Source: an uncultured Spirochaetales bacterium (GTDB lineage: Bacteria; Spirochaetota; Spirochaetia; Sphaerochaetales; Sphaerochaetaceae). Taken from it: DNA of 39,977 bases. Each line of letters begins with the position of its first letter. Position 1 is the first letter of the stretch. Both the position numbers and the translations under genes were made by a program. The notes beneath the pieces were generated by a model. That model was not told the DNA's origin and ran no database searches. It saw only the letters and a program-made list of their open reading frames with translations. The stretch covers positions 1 through 39,977 of the forward strand of contig CADCOT010000022.1 in NCBI GenBank assembly GCA_902803145.1, read 5' to 3'. Positions 9,439-33,383 of the stretch are shown piece after piece.

Positions 9439-10365
9439 ATGATGAAAAAATTTATTTTAATATTACTTTTTGGTATTGTTCTACTTGTTTCTGTATCTTC
9501 CGCAGGTACCTCAAGTTTATTCTTCCAGGGCATCCCGTATGCAGGGCGCACCTCTTCAGGCCAAAGGTCTGTCTACGGCTTCGGAGCAGAACTTGGCTAC
9601 AGATATAACATTTGGCGCGGCATCAAAGTAGGGGCAGACCTGTCATACAAGTCCTTCAATTATCAAGAATTACAGCGCCAAGGTGTCCTTTCATTTATTG
9701 CAAAAGCAGGCTGGAAGCAGACCTTCGGAAAGGGCAAAAACTTTGCAGTTGGCGCCTACCTTGGCCTTGGGGCCGATATCGTCATCTCCTCCAATTCTTC
9801 TAATGTTTTCTTTGCCGTAACTGCAAGCGGCGCCCTTGCTTATAAACTTAGCAATCATCTCTCCGTAATGACAGGCCTTGATTACGGCTTTCTTGACCGA
9901 AGCGTAACGGCAAAAATAGGCATGATAGTTACCTTATCACGCTTTCCCTACCACGGAGCAGGTGTTGGCCTTGTCATGGATGGTAAAATCCTTATGGGTA
10001 AACGCCTGAACACCCCTCTGTTTAGTGACAAATGGGCCATCCCCGGCGGAACTCGTGAAAAATTTGATGCAGATGACTTTGCAACTGCAACTCGCGAATT
10101 AAAAGAAGAAATGGCAATTGACTTTTTCAACCTTGATGCTACCTACATAGGGCAGTGGTCCCTTACCATTCCCTTCTTCAGTTGGAAGACCTTCTTTTAC
10201 ACCATAGACAGCATGGATCAGCAGATAGTAATGAAGGAGTTTTCCGAATACCGCTGGCTTGAGATAGACAAAATCTTGGACGGCTCATACTCCGACCTTG
10301 ATTTCAGACCGTTCACTCGTTCAGAAATGAAAAAACTTGCCAAACTCTTAGAGGAAATGAAATGA
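9439..10365 (+). CDS. signal peptide + outer-membrane-like barrel + Nudix fusion
   Basis: A 308-residue protein with an unusual architecture. Residues 1-22 are a cleavable-type signal peptide. Residues 25-169 are rich in alternating, aromatic-capped strands (VYGFGAELGYRY, IKVGADLSYKSF, FAVGAYLGLGADI, SVTAKIGMIVTLSRF), as in a small outer-membrane beta-barrel ending in an aromatic residue. Residues 172-300 look like a Nudix domain: WAIPGG at 199-204, then RELKEEMAI at 219-227. The Nudix box has two extra residues in its first loop and Ala in place of the usual Gly, so it is divergent. The frame is open throughout without a gap. Nudix enzymes normally act on cytoplasmic nucleoside diphosphates, so the location is puzzling. 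It is coupled to the ASCH gene by an ATGA overlap. Confidence 0.75.
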   Translation: MMKKFILILLFGIVLLVSVSSAGTSSLFFQGIPYAGRTSSGQRSVYGFGAELGYRYNIWRGIKVGADLSYKSFNYQELQRQGVLSFIAKAGWKQTFGKGKNFAVGAYLGLGADIVISSNSSNVFFAVTASGALAYKLSNHLSVMTGLDYGFLDRSVTAKIGMIVTLSRFPYHGAGVGLVMDGKILMGKRLNTPLFSDKWAIPGGTREKFDADDFATATRELKEEMAIDFFNLDATYIGQWSLTIPFFSWKTFFYTIDSMDQQIVMKEFSEYRWLEIDKILDGSYSDLDFRPFTRSEMKKLAKLLEEMK

Positions 10366-24767: not shown

Positions 24768-24828
24768 ACAGAGAAATGTACATTCAAAAGCCCTGTTTGC
24801 AAAGACCTTAATCTGCTATTATTGCCTC

Positions 24829-25875
24829 ATGGCCAAGGCAAAGAAGAAAAAATCGTCAATACTGCCGCTGATTATCATTGTAGTGATAATTGTTCTTGCA
24901 GCGGCACTTCTGTATTTTACCCCGGTTAAAGACCCTCGTCAGTTCATGGAAGTTGAAGGGGAGAACCTTGAACTGATTGCTCTTCCTTCCAATGACGGTG
25001 ACATAATTGTCCACAACGGCTTTACCCTCAAATACTCAGAAGAGCACGAGCAGCCGTACTGGGTTGCCTACGTCCTCACGCCCGAGGAAACTGTGGTCAA
25101 AGCCGTCTCACGTTCAGATGATTTCCGCGCCGATCCGGCAATCCCCACAGGCAGTGCCACCCTTGCTGACTACAAGAGCAGTGGCTATGACCGAGGCCAT
25201 CTTGCACCCTTTGCCGACCTTTCATGGTCAGAAGAATCTGCATCAGATTCCTTTTTACTTTCAAACATGAGTCCCCAGGCCGGATCTCTGAACCGTGGCC
25301 GCTGGGCTGACCTAGAGAGTGTAATTCGCACATTCAGCCTCTCGGGCCCCATCTGTGTAGTTACCGGCCCGGTTCTTACCGACGGTCCTTACAAGACAAT
25401 AGGGCAGAACAAGGTTGCAGTTCCCAACTACTTCTACAAGGTTGTTCTTTTCTACAGCGGCCAGCGCTCACGAGCAATCGGCTTTTTGCTTCCCAACGAA
25501 GCCTGCAAGGAACCTCTTAAGTCCTATGCCGTTTCTGTTGATTACATAGAACAGCTCACCGGCATTGATTTCTTCTCAATGCTTCCGGACGACGTAGAAG
25601 ACGTCCTTGAAAGCTCATTTGACACCGACCTCTGGGACTTTACTGACTATTCTGCCAAAGTGGCCGCCTCATACGGCTACAGTGCAGATACTGCAACTGT
25701 ATCCCCAATCCAGGCCACAACATTTGAAATCAGAAAAGATCCCCAGACAGCAGAGGAAAAGATTCTCTACTTCCTCTACGTCAATTTCTCATCAATAAAA
25801 ATTGAACTGCTTGAGCTTTTTGGTTATAGTTTGGATACTGTCAAAGAAATAACTGCGGCATTAGTACATCGGTAG
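24829..25875 (+). CDS. membrane-anchored DNA/RNA non-specific endonuclease (NucA/EndA family)
   Basis: A 348-residue protein. A lysine-rich start and one membrane helix (11-30) anchor it, so the enzyme should face the periplasm. The catalytic DRGH is at 121-124, and the metal-binding Asn of SLNRGRWADLE is at 155 with Glu163. A 100-residue C-terminal extension follows, of unknown role. The frame is open upstream to 24709, but ATG 24829 is chosen because the upstream part would run into the cysE gene and lacks the signal-anchor start. The last six residues (AALVHR) and the TAG stop are encoded by the first 21 nt of the tRNA-Gly gene. The family degrades DNA and RNA for nutrition, competence or defence. 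Confidence 0.9.
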   Translation: MAKAKKKKSSILPLIIIVVIIVLAAALLYFTPVKDPRQFMEVEGENLELIALPSNDGDIIVHNGFTLKYSEEHEQPYWVAYVLTPEETVVKAVSRSDDFRADPAIPTGSATLADYKSSGYDRGHLAPFADLSWSEESASDSFLLSNMSPQAGSLNRGRWADLESVIRTFSLSGPICVVTGPVLTDGPYKTIGQNKVAVPNYFYKVVLFYSGQRSRAIGFLLPNEACKEPLKSYAVSVDYIEQLTGIDFFSMLPDDVEDVLESSFDTDLWDFTDYSAKVAASYGYSADTATVSPIQATTFEIRKDPQTAEEKILYFLYVNFSSIKIELLELFGYSLDTVKEITAALVHR

Positions 25876-25925
25876 TACATGAGCTTCCCAAGCTCGTGAG
25901 GCGGGTTCGACTCCCGTATGCCGCT
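25855..25925 (+). tRNA. tRNA-Gly (anticodon CCC)
   Basis: A 71-nt cloverleaf folds completely: acceptor GCGGCAT/ATGCCGC (7 pairs), D stem GTAC/GTAC with a GG-containing loop, anticodon stem TGAGC/GCTCG around loop TTCCCAA with CCC at 25887-25889, and T stem GCGGG/CCCGT around TTCGACT. The discriminator is T. The 3' CCA is not encoded. The first 21 nt are also the end of the nuclease gene, whose stop codon lies in the D loop. A terminator follows directly. Confidence 0.96.
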
Positions 25926-29924: not shown

Positions 29925-30668
29925 TTACTTCAATTTGCCTGCAATTGAAATTAGGTTTGCAAGGTCAAAATCAACACCGTAGATTGTCTCAATAACACTT
30001 ACGTCTGTCTGAACGACCTTGACCAGTTCTTCAATTTGTTCACTTGAAGCAGACGGGTCTTCTGCCAGCTCTACAACATCTTTAACAATGTTGGTAATCA
30101 ATGTTGTGGCAATAATATCACCCTGAGACTGATATGTTTTGGTATTTCTTTCAGTAAGGACTTTATCAAGAGCAACAAGGGTGGGAACTGCCTGTTTGAG
30201 AGCGTCGACTACATCTTGGTTGTCGCCAACCAATGTCTCAGATGGTCCGATTACCCCTGATTTTTGCAGGAAACTATCCACCAAACTTCCAATTTCTGCT
30301 GCAGAAGCAGTAGCGTCAGCAACAGCGGCAGCAATATTTGTTGCCTCTTTAGCAGGCTTTTCTGTTCCCTCAACCTTCTTTGCTAGGGCTTTCTGGACAG
30401 CCTCAGCACTGGCACCGGACTGGCTGGCTTCAACAATCAGGTTTCTGATTTCATCAAGTTCATCAGCGCTGATGTCTGTGTTTCCATCCTTGAAAACTTC
30501 ATCAACTACAGATGTTACGTTGCCGACAGCAACTCTATCGCCATAACCCAGGTTGATATTTCCAACTCTGGTAAAACCCTTTCCCATCTTTTCAATCTGA
30601 TCCTGAGAGCAGGCTACACAGATTAACAGAACTGCAATTGTTAAAACAAAAATGAAATTCTTCTTCAT
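29925..30668 (-). CDS. lipoprotein of unknown function
   Basis: A 247-residue lipoprotein with lipobox ICVAC and Cys20 as the lipid site. The mature part is mostly predicted helix, rich in Ala, Asp and Glu, with acidic and hydrophobic heptad-like spacing (ISADELDEIRNLIVEASQSG, SSEQIEELVKVVQTDVSVIE). I see no known domain. The gene is second in a unit with the outer-membrane protein upstream, 15 nt apart, and has a very strong RBS (AAGGAGGTG). This suggests it is made in quantity and works with that barrel, for example as a periplasmic partner. Confidence 0.8.
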   Translation of the reverse strand: MKKNFIFVLTIAVLLICVACSQDQIEKMGKGFTRVGNINLGYGDRVAVGNVTSVVDEVFKDGNTDISADELDEIRNLIVEASQSGASAEAVQKALAKKVEGTEKPAKEATNIAAAVADATASAAEIGSLVDSFLQKSGVIGPSETLVGDNQDVVDALKQAVPTLVALDKVLTERNTKTYQSQGDIIATTLITNIVKDVVELAEDPSASSEQIEELVKVVQTDVSVIETIYGVDFDLANLISIAGKLK

Positions 30669-30683
30669 GACTGCACCTCCTTA

Positions 30684-31913
30684 TCAGTTTGAATCAAAGC
30701 CGAACTTGACTCTGAACGTGAGAGCATCGACGGGTTTGGCACCGTAAAGATCTCCAGCTTCGTGGAAGGAGTAGGAGACTTCAATGGTGTTGCCCTTAAA
30801 GCCTGCAGAAAGACCGAACATGGGGTAGCCGTTCTGGAAAGCAATGCTCAGATTGACAACCTTTACAATTCTCAGGTCGATTCTTGCAACAAGGTGGGTA
30901 ATCAGCTCCAGGCCGGGCTTCTTGCCACCATTCTTGTTCAAGTCTTCCTTAATGTAACCGTTAATATCCTCAATTGTGAATGAGAATACAGGGTTCAGGA
31001 CCTTAACCTTCGGTTCCCATACAAGACCAAGGTTCAGCTGCCACGGAGTGTAGAGAACAAAGTTGGAACCGCTGATAGGAGTTTTGCCGCCTGTAATAAC
31101 AGCGAACAAATCCTCCGGTTTATCAATCTGATAGTCCTTCATGTAGTAGTAGCCGTTAAGGTTGTTTACATTCAGGTTAAATCTCAGATTGCCGTTCATT
31201 ATTCCATAAGTAAGAGCAACATCAAACGGGATGGCAAAACCGCTCTTTGCCATCATTGAAAGAGAGGTGCCATGTTCAAGATACTCAACGGCATTCTTTC
31301 CTGAAATACCTGTAGCATAGCCCTTCAGTGCATAGCGCACACCTACACCAAGATCAAGGAAGAATGAGTTTGTTTCATAGATTCTGGTACCGTATGCAAC
31401 AGTTGCAGCAGCGTTAACCAAAGGAACAACCTCGGTATTGTAAATATTCTGGATACCTGTGCTGCCTTCAGAAGGCTTTGTTCTGGAATCTGCCCTAAGG
31501 TCAAATGAGAAACCGAACTTGTTAATTGCAAAGCCCAAACCTGCGTTTATTGTAATAACATCATTTCTACCGGTTCCCAGGTTCAGCATCATCTTACTTG
31601 CCAAATTAATCAGGTTTGCAGATGAAAAATCTAAATGGCTTATCTTGCTAAGAGCTTCAGCTGTTGTAGGAGCCGACATAGCCTTAGCCACGTTGTACAT
31701 TGTGACAGAAACGTTCGGAAGCTGAAGCATAAATCTGTTTCTAGCCAATTCTGCCTGATTGTTGTACATCTTGTAAGCCAGTGTACCGGGGGTAGAGTAC
31801 AGAGTAGGTCTAAATGGAACTGTAACCACTTTCTTGTAACTTCCGCCGTCACTTGCAGCAAAAAGAGACATGGTCAGAACCATCAGAAGTAATAGTCCAA
31901 GAATTTTTTTCAT
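30684..31913 (-). CDS. outer-membrane beta-barrel protein (TraF/FadL-like)
   Basis: A 409-residue exported protein. The signal peptide ends near LFAAS; the mature part is full of alternating strands (ITINAGLGFAINKFGFSFDLRAD, FFLDLGVGVRYALKGY, LNLGLVWEPKVK, FRVKFGF at the end). The layout, a leading helical segment (SANLINLASKMMLNLG) before the barrel, recalls spirochaete FadL/TraF-like outer-membrane proteins; no substrate can be named. The frame is open to 31940, but the start at 31913 is used because GAGGAG is 7 nt upstream and MKKILGLLLLMVL is a proper signal start. It forms an operon with the following lipoprotein. Confidence 0.8.
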   Translation of the reverse strand: MKKILGLLLLMVLTMSLFAASDGGSYKKVVTVPFRPTLYSTPGTLAYKMYNNQAELARNRFMLQLPNVSVTMYNVAKAMSAPTTAEALSKISHLDFSSANLINLASKMMLNLGTGRNDVITINAGLGFAINKFGFSFDLRADSRTKPSEGSTGIQNIYNTEVVPLVNAAATVAYGTRIYETNSFFLDLGVGVRYALKGYATGISGKNAVEYLEHGTSLSMMAKSGFAIPFDVALTYGIMNGNLRFNLNVNNLNGYYYMKDYQIDKPEDLFAVITGGKTPISGSNFVLYTPWQLNLGLVWEPKVKVLNPVFSFTIEDINGYIKEDLNKNGGKKPGLELITHLVARIDLRIVKVVNLSIAFQNGYPMFGLSAGFKGNTIEVSYSFHEAGDLYGAKPVDALTFRVKFGFDSN

Positions 31914-31947
31914 AAACTTCTCCTCAACTATAATATACACCTTGCGC

Positions 31948-31982: not shown

Positions 31983-33383
31983 ATGAGAAATACTAAAAAT
32001 TATCGTATCGTCAGCGTATTGCTGACATTTTTACTGCTTGTCAGTCTCCTTGTAGGCTGTTCAAGCACCGGCGTAACAAGCACCGGCGTAACAAGCACTA
32101 GTGCAAAGGCCCCAAGTGCATCAACATCGAGCGAAAGCGCAAGCGCATCCACAAGCGAAAATTCAGGTCTTTTTGCCAACAAAGAACTCAACCGCTTGAT
32201 TGACCAGAACCATAAAGAGGTAGAGAAAAACGGTTGGGCAGAACTTAGAATTCCTGCAAGTATGCACGGAATTACAGAAGATTTTGTAGATCCGGATGCA
32301 GTAGATGCAGCAAAGAAACTTCTTGCTGAAGGCTATGAAGTTTACGTAGTAGGCGGAGCTATCCGTGACCTTATCATGGGATATCCGGCAAACGACTTTG
32401 ACCTTGCAACCAACGCCTCTATTACAGAAATCAAAAGAATCCTCGGCGATGTCACCACACACGACGTAGGAGACATGACATTTGCCTATGCTCACTATCC
32501 CACACAGATAGTAGACGTTGCTCCGTTCTACAATATTCCAGTTGCTTACTACGGAAGTGAAGGTATCCCCGAATTCAATCCCCAGGAAAGAATTACAGAC
32601 AAAGCCATAAATGACTCATTCAGACGTGACCTCACAATGAATTCAATCTACTACGATATGTCCAACGGCGACATTGTCACATGGCAGGGCGGTCTTTACG
32701 ACATCAGAGAACAGCAGATTAATACAATTGCAGAGCCAAATTTGCAGATGACAGACGACCCCAGTGTCACAATCCGCGCTCTTCGCTTCAAGGCTCGTTA
32801 CAACTACAAGTTCTCAGACAGACTTGAAGAGGCCATGCGCAGCGGCTGTCCCATCTACCTTGACGCCCTTGATCCTGATTCAATGGCATTCAACCTGCCC
32901 AAGCTTTTCAACGGCGGTTATGCTACAGAATCCTACAACGTTCTTGTTGACTACAACGGCTTTGAAACCCTGTTCCCATCAACAGAAGGCTATGGTTCAG
33001 ACGCCGCATTCCAGTCCTACATGAAAGTTGCAATGGCTCAGTTTGACGCCCTCTACGCAGGCGGCACAAAGGTTTCCGAGCAGCTTATGTTCTCCACAAT
33101 CCTTTGGCCCATGATTGCCCGCGAAGAGAACTTTGACAGAGCCCTTGAGAAGCACATTTCCCTCCAGTTCAAGAAGTGCGCAACCGACTACGAGATTATC
33201 AATTCCATGCGCAGGATGCTCAGACTTGAGGAAAAGCTCACAACTGAAGCCACCCAGAACCACGCCGAGCTCATTGCCAGCTCCGACGAGTTCGCAGACG
33301 CCCTCAGGCTTCTTGAAATCCGCGCCTTAGCCGGCGATGTCCCCACCCAGACACTTGATTTCTGGAAAACATACGCCAAATAA
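31983..33383 (+). CDS. lipoprotein with poly(A)-polymerase/CCA-adding nucleotidyltransferase domain
   Basis: A 466-residue protein combining a lipoprotein signal with a class II nucleotidyltransferase. Residues 1-26 are a signal peptide with lipobox LLVGC (Cys26); residues 27-62 are a Ser/Thr/Ala tether. From 117 the poly(A)-polymerase head follows: VVGGAIRD at 122-129, DFDLAT at 138-143 (catalytic Asp138 and Asp140), IVDVAPF with Asp178 as third acidic residue, RRDLTMNSIYYD at 214-225, GGLYDI at 236-241, and DDPSVTIRALRF at 258-269. All key residues are kept. The family adds A or CCA to RNA inside the cytoplasm, so an exported copy is unexpected. The frame is unbroken. It is divergent from the outer-membrane protein operon. 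Confidence 0.85.
   Translation: MRNTKNYRIVSVLLTFLLLVSLLVGCSSTGVTSTGVTSTSAKAPSASTSSESASASTSENSGLFANKELNRLIDQNHKEVEKNGWAELRIPASMHGITEDFVDPDAVDAAKKLLAEGYEVYVVGGAIRDLIMGYPANDFDLATNASITEIKRILGDVTTHDVGDMTFAYAHYPTQIVDVAPFYNIPVAYYGSEGIPEFNPQERITDKAINDSFRRDLTMNSIYYDMSNGDIVTWQGGLYDIREQQINTIAEPNLQMTDDPSVTIRALRFKARYNYKFSDRLEEAMRSGCPIYLDALDPDSMAFNLPKLFNGGYATESYNVLVDYNGFETLFPSTEGYGSDAAFQSYMKVAMAQFDALYAGGTKVSEQLMFSTILWPMIAREENFDRALEKHISLQFKKCATDYEIINSMRRMLRLEEKLTTEATQNHAELIASSDEFADALRLLEIRALAGDVPTQTLDFWKTYAK
32064..32093 (+). repeat. 15-bp tandem duplication in the lipoprotein tether
   Basis: AGCACCGGCGTAACA occurs twice in a row (32064-32078 and 32079-32093), followed by a partial third copy (AGCACTAGTG). 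It adds the residues STGVT twice to the tether behind the lipid-bearing Cys, a place where length changes should be tolerated. Confidence 0.9.

Follow-up and report, generated by a model that had tools for sequence, protein, structure and literature searches.

In the window studied here, a stretch of 39,977 nucleotides (positions 1 to 39,977 of contig CADCOT010000022.1, from the uncultured Spirochaetales bacterium assembly GCA_902803145.1), an open reading frame at 31983-33383 (+) joins a predicted lipoprotein signal and a low-complexity tether to a nucleotidyltransferase domain (Table 1). The frame begins with ATG, has an in-frame TAA four codons 5' of it, and runs uninterrupted by any stop. 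On its 5' side lie a putative promoter and two divergent genes, a pair that is kept together in both congeners (78% and 57% complete). The family of the 409-aa product is present in 116 of the 138 genomes of the bacterial family. Beside the conserved pair, both of these incomplete congeners carry a different gene and not a homolog of 31983-33383; judged from its start, this is apparently a DHH-type pyrophosphatase. The neighbor genes gave no functional link to 31983-33383.

Table 1. Features of the nucleotidyltransferase gene and its immediate surroundings (window coordinates)
Feature	Coordinates	Strand	Basis
Second divergent neighbor, 247 aa, lipoprotein-like N-terminus, no Pfam family	29925..30668	-	Pfam, congener comparison
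Divergent neighbor, 409 aa, signal peptide, no Pfam family	30684..31913	-	Pfam, congener comparison
Sigma-70-like promoter, TTTTCA-16-TATAAT, 10/12 matches, 48 bp 5' of the ATG	31907..31934	+	Consensus match alone
Whole ORF, 466 aa, lipoprotein with PcnB/CCA-type nucleotidyltransferase domain	31983..33383	+	ORF list, Pfam/NCBIfam profiles, PDB sequence matches
Signal peptide, residues 1-25, MRNTKNYRIVSVLLTFLLLVSLLVG	31983..32057	+	Lipoprotein rule
Lipobox Cys26 codon (LVG/C), predicted lipidation site	32058..32060	+	Lipoprotein rule
Low-complexity Ser/Thr/Ala tether, residues 27-62	32061..32168	+	Translation
N-terminal helix, residues about 67-83 (NRLID..H..V..NG)	32181..32231	+	Alignment with relative, AlphaFold model
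PolyA_pol head domain, residues 120-246, E=2e-20	32340..32720	+	Pfam
Catalytic DFD, residues 138-140 (E. coli PAPI D80/D82), kept	32394..32402	+	Alignment
RRD, residues 214-216 (E. coli R161, D162), kept	32622..32630	+	Alignment
Motif D, DDPSV versus EDPVR; template Arg (E. coli R208) replaced by Val262	32754..32768	+	Alignment
Weak PolyA_pol_arg_C match, residues 382-465, without an arginine-rich tail after it	33126..33377	+	Pfam

Residues 1-26 (MRNTKNYRIVSVLLTFLLLVSLLVGC) comprise a positive n-region with R2, K5 and R8, a hydrophobic core, and a lipobox (LVGC) whose cysteine falls within the interval of positions 15-35 that defines the rule. The protein and its homologs, 117 sequences in total, were assessed with a PROSITE-type rule and with the hydrophobicity maximum over 15 residues; only the 31983-33383 product passed on both counts, and its N-terminal hydrophobicity was the highest of the 117. 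Lipobox matches in three viral homologs were discarded as false positives, since they lie inside the catalytic VGGCVRD motif and lack a hydrophobic core. Thus, the lipoprotein signal claimed by the first-pass annotation for residues 1-26 is borne out, as is the low-complexity tether behind it, a Ser/Thr/Ala-rich stretch reaching to about residue 62. Lsp and Lgt are both encoded in the same genome, and the product is predicted to be exported and lipidated at Cys26. A search for a donor of the signal elsewhere in this genome yielded weak look-alikes only. A positive n-region predicts an N-in/C-out topology whether the signal is cleaved or not, and a lipobox puts the mature part of a protein outside. 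Consequently, the option that the signal holds the enzyme on the inner face of the membrane, which had also been raised, is disfavored.

A mis-called start was considered as a source of the signal and ruled out. Between Cys26 and codon 72 there is no ATG, GTG or TTG codon, which forces the start; barring a rare initiation codon, the conserved domain from about residue 64 onward is untranslatable without the signal. An alternative TTG at codon 13 would leave both the hydrophobic core and the lipobox in place. A start at TTG72 would truncate the NRLID helix (residues 67-83), which is common to the single relative described below and is folded with high confidence in the AlphaFold model; coding must therefore begin well 5' of this helix.

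In the structure model, the domain after the tether is a complete PcnB/CCA fold. The AlphaFold2 model, built from a 37-sequence alignment, reached a pLDDT of 86.2 and a pTM of 0.85, and its top match in the PDB was E. coli PAP (3aql), aligned over nearly the full length with TM scores of 0.78/0.81, which places the product with PcnB by fold. A sequence comparison with the PDB likewise ranked structures of E. coli poly(A) polymerase first, and among NCBIfam models PcnB TIGR01942 scored highest (2.9e-47), its 161.5 bits lying well below the curated cut-off of 305.65.

Motifs were compared with those of 37 poly(A)-polymerase homologs (35 from spirochetes, E. coli PcnB, and one human-fecal sequence filed as phage) and of the genome's own CCA enzyme. 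In the alignment, the product keeps GGxxRD, DFD, RRD, and, in motif D, Asp259, Arg265 and Arg268; in the numbering of PMC9764084, the equivalents of E. coli R161, D162, D205, R211 and R214 are all kept and that of R208 is lost. Val262 takes the place of the arginine of the motif D sequence EDxxR, and Tyr183 that of the TFR arginine, each an arginine in all 37 homologs and in the CCA enzyme. The GRRFR-type signature after DxD, which reads G[RK]RF[RK] in 37/37 homologs, was not found in the product, where the stretch reads VGDMTFAYAH. The motif D arginine is also kept by 76 further homologs from viral contigs: [ED]DxxRxxR fits 75 of them, and the other reads QDYLRMLR. The initial statement that every catalytic motif is retained thus holds for GGAIRD, DFDLAT, RRD and RALRF and fails for the EDxxR arginine, the TFR arginine and GRRFR, lost here against 37/37.

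PMC9764084 gives the activity of E. coli PAPI as abolished by mutating D205 or R208. Libraries varied at the three EDxxR positions of the human CCA enzyme yielded no substitutions of Asp or Arg and tolerated the exchange of Glu for Asp or Gly (PMC11784652); the Val262 change therefore affects one of the two template residues found irreplaceable there. With the base-reading arginine lost, the 31983-33383 product is, judging from its sequence, probably not a poly(A) polymerase. The mature domain has a pI of 4.64, versus 9.2-10 for poly(A) polymerases and 5.6 for the genome's CCA enzyme; because the latter is acidic too, acidity proves little alone. The Arg/Lys-rich C-terminal tail of the basic PcnB type was not found in the product.

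The search for relatives covered 138 further genomes from the family and overlapping draws of 392 and 394 other genomes from the phylum and class. These Spirochaetota sets held one, in the roe-deer rumen Spirochaetales MAG RGIG4911 (L005/L041, JAFUXI010000013.1), with 29% identity over residues 63-446. Contig scans with a single-protein query returned nothing, and those with an alignment query returned the roe-deer MAG only. The relative shows the same losses (template Arg to Thr, TFR Arg to Val, GRRFR gone), is also acidic, and keeps DxD and the equivalents of R161, D162, D205, R211 and R214. Its ORF starts 26 residues ahead of the aligned domain and no signal was found in it, the upstream frame being closed by a stop and devoid of a hydrophobic stretch; the protein should therefore be cytoplasmic. 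The roe-deer gene (L005 38-1426, +) overlaps by ATGA its upstream neighbor, which encodes a fusion of a MatE transporter with a HATPase_c_2 domain; on the other side of the roe-deer gene lies one for a histidine phosphatase.

The evidence on the signal thus comes from one genome and one draft assembly, and the sole relative, at 29% identity, is unsignalled. The first-pass annotation had held that homologs starting at about residue 63 would speak against the signal; the relative does begin its domain at the equivalent of residue 64, but the present gene offers no usable internal start at that point. Based on this one relative, the signal on 31983-33383 is probably a lineage-specific addition and not a start error. 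One could also imagine an assembly chimera, the start of a lipoprotein gene having been fused computationally with a PcnB-like one. The unsignalled relative, the single draft assembly in 150 contigs and the climb in GC3 from 0.40 to 0.66 along the ORF would all fit such an artifact. However, the frame is open throughout, the GC3 rise is gradual and without a step at the joint between signal and domain, codon usage in all parts of the ORF is like that of neighboring genes, and the congeners share the upstream neighbor pair, which marks this flank as the organism's own; we regard a chimera as very unlikely. Least probable of all, and in our view hardly credible, is that a divergent gene with an unsettled function was recently captured and landed by chance behind a lipoprotein signal. 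Its absence at the conserved pair in the two incomplete congeners and from nearly all spirochetes sampled agrees with capture; the intact ORF, the kept catalytic aspartates and the host-like codon usage argue against it.

In a quick tree with long branches, the product and its roe-deer relative formed a pair (99%) that a long stem joins to the PcnB side, with an unsure exact attachment point; five longer PcnB ORFs with upstream in-frame extensions, taken as mis-started, were excluded from it. Tree and fold together point to a PcnB ancestry for the domain. A phage or plasmid origin was rejected, as only ordinary PcnB/CCA homologs and no close relative were found there. Since the relative has the same losses but no signal, the changed pocket probably predates export. 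The economical order would be that a PcnB paralog altered its pocket in the cytoplasm and that one lineage later gained a lipoprotein signal. With two members known, the signal may alternatively have been lost in the roe-deer relative.

The second, unsignalled copy for which a search had been proposed was found twice over, as a CCA enzyme of 446 aa (L001) and an ordinary PcnB of 370 aa; with these two class II nucleotidyltransferases in the genome, 31983-33383 is a third copy. The former is also the separate CCA-adding enzyme that had been deduced from the tRNA-Gly of the window, which, as claimed, lacks an encoded CCA.

Taken together, the reading that we somewhat favor is that of a lipid-anchored, extracytoplasmic nucleotidyltransferase derived from PcnB, with changed nucleotide recognition, whose ligand would be a nucleotide or nucleotide-like donor, perhaps transferred to an acceptor in the envelope or outside. 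The signal peptide would carry the chain through Sec, and Lgt and Lsp would process it at Cys26. The flexible tether would then expose the complete two-metal nucleotidyltransferase fold, of PcnB type, beyond the cytoplasm, at a leaflet of the inner or outer membrane or at the surface. There, the domain would still hold metal ions and bind its donor with a loosened or shifted preference for the base, and might carry out transfer onto the acceptor. A retained activity with such a donor and acceptor is what we infer for the product. In short, 31983-33383 probably represents a tailing enzyme repurposed for an extracytoplasmic job in a treponeme-like bacterium. The option of a new role for the fold, one of several in the first-pass annotation, gains support to this extent from the lost nucleobase-reading arginine and poly(A)-polymerase signature.

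The leading rival reading is a pseudoenzyme that is exported but no longer catalyzes transfer, its fold being confined to a structural role in the envelope or to the binding of a nucleotide, an oligonucleotide or a protein there. We know of no ATP supply outside the cytoplasm, so transferase chemistry there would have no obvious donor; this weighs against the favored reading and for the rival, as do the loss of both the base-reading and the TFR arginine in the two members and an acidic surface unlike that of poly(A) polymerases. Nevertheless, the two catalytic aspartates, RRD and the R211/R214 equivalents are kept in both members at 29% identity, which would not be expected under drift in a pure scaffold and argues mildly for chemistry. 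We consider the pseudoenzyme possible, though on the unlikely side. A cytoplasmic RNA-tailing enzyme held at the membrane, with the N-terminus as an anchor only, appears improbable to us. A membrane location has been reported for E. coli PAPI (Jasiecki & Wegrzyn 2005, as cited in PMC9764084), and the expected cytoplasmic location of the roe-deer relative would suit this account. It is opposed by the N-in/C-out charge distribution, the canonical lipobox with tether, the loss of the template arginine and the poly(A)-polymerase signature, and the normal PcnB that the genome already has.

Two other genes of the window are worth describing in this context. The ORF at 9439-10365 (+) has a signal peptide and an outer-membrane-barrel-like half (OMP_b-brl, below cut-off) fused to a Nudix domain (PF00293, 1.8e-8), and its product is possibly an exported Nudix hydrolase. 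The fusion is conserved at full length in two genomes of another genus, at 46-47% identity (L152 1492-2427, -; L153 1495-2493, -), and most relatives have the barrel-like and Nudix halves as separate genes. At about 24826-25875 (+), a DNA/RNA non-specific endonuclease (PF01223, 2e-51) carries an N-terminal membrane anchor, and the 3' end of its ORF shares 21 nt with the same-strand tRNA-Gly at 25855-25925. As both products resemble exported enzymes of nucleotides or nucleic acids, an extracytoplasmic nucleotide or nucleic-acid role for the 31983-33383 product becomes a little likelier, no more.

Because they need ATP/CTP and RNA, PcnB and CCA enzymes are by definition regarded as cytoplasmic. 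We know of no exported member of the family, and none was found described in open-access papers. A more far-reaching proposal, speculative and in our judgment rather unlikely, is that the product works as a membrane-tethered, extracytoplasmic nucleotidyltransferase, its poly(A)-polymerase fold equipped with a remodeled nucleobase pocket, and modifies molecules of the envelope or outside, such as RNA ends, nucleotides or non-nucleic acceptors. If true, it would be, to our knowledge, the first case of template-independent RNA-polymerase-type chemistry outside the cytoplasm. A lipid-anchored copy with its metal site kept and one nucleobase contact removed would be a clean natural experiment on how this fold can be repurposed, and would prompt one to ask what a nucleotidyltransferase could use as donor and acceptor outside the cytoplasm.

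Among known systems, PcnB (TIGR01942; E. coli PAPI 3aqk/3aql/3aqm) is the nearest, as the best sequence family, by the side of the tree and by a full-length fold (TM 0.78), and the product shares with it DxD, RRD, the R211/R214 equivalents and a weak PolyA_pol_arg_C match. Unlike PcnB, it has a lipoprotein signal and tether, has lost R208, the TFR arginine and GRRFR, lacks the arginine-rich tail, has a pI of 4.6 versus 9.2-10, and scores far below the TIGR01942 cut-off. Class II CCA enzymes (PDB 1miv and the genome's own) have the head fold, GGxxRD, DxD and RRD in common with it; in contrast, EDxxR of motif D is broken in the product (DDPSV), which also falls off the CCA side of the tree. The roe-deer RGIG4911 homolog differs in having no signal peptide and different gene neighbors, but resembles the product over the whole domain (29%), in the NRLID helix, in the same losses and in its acidity.
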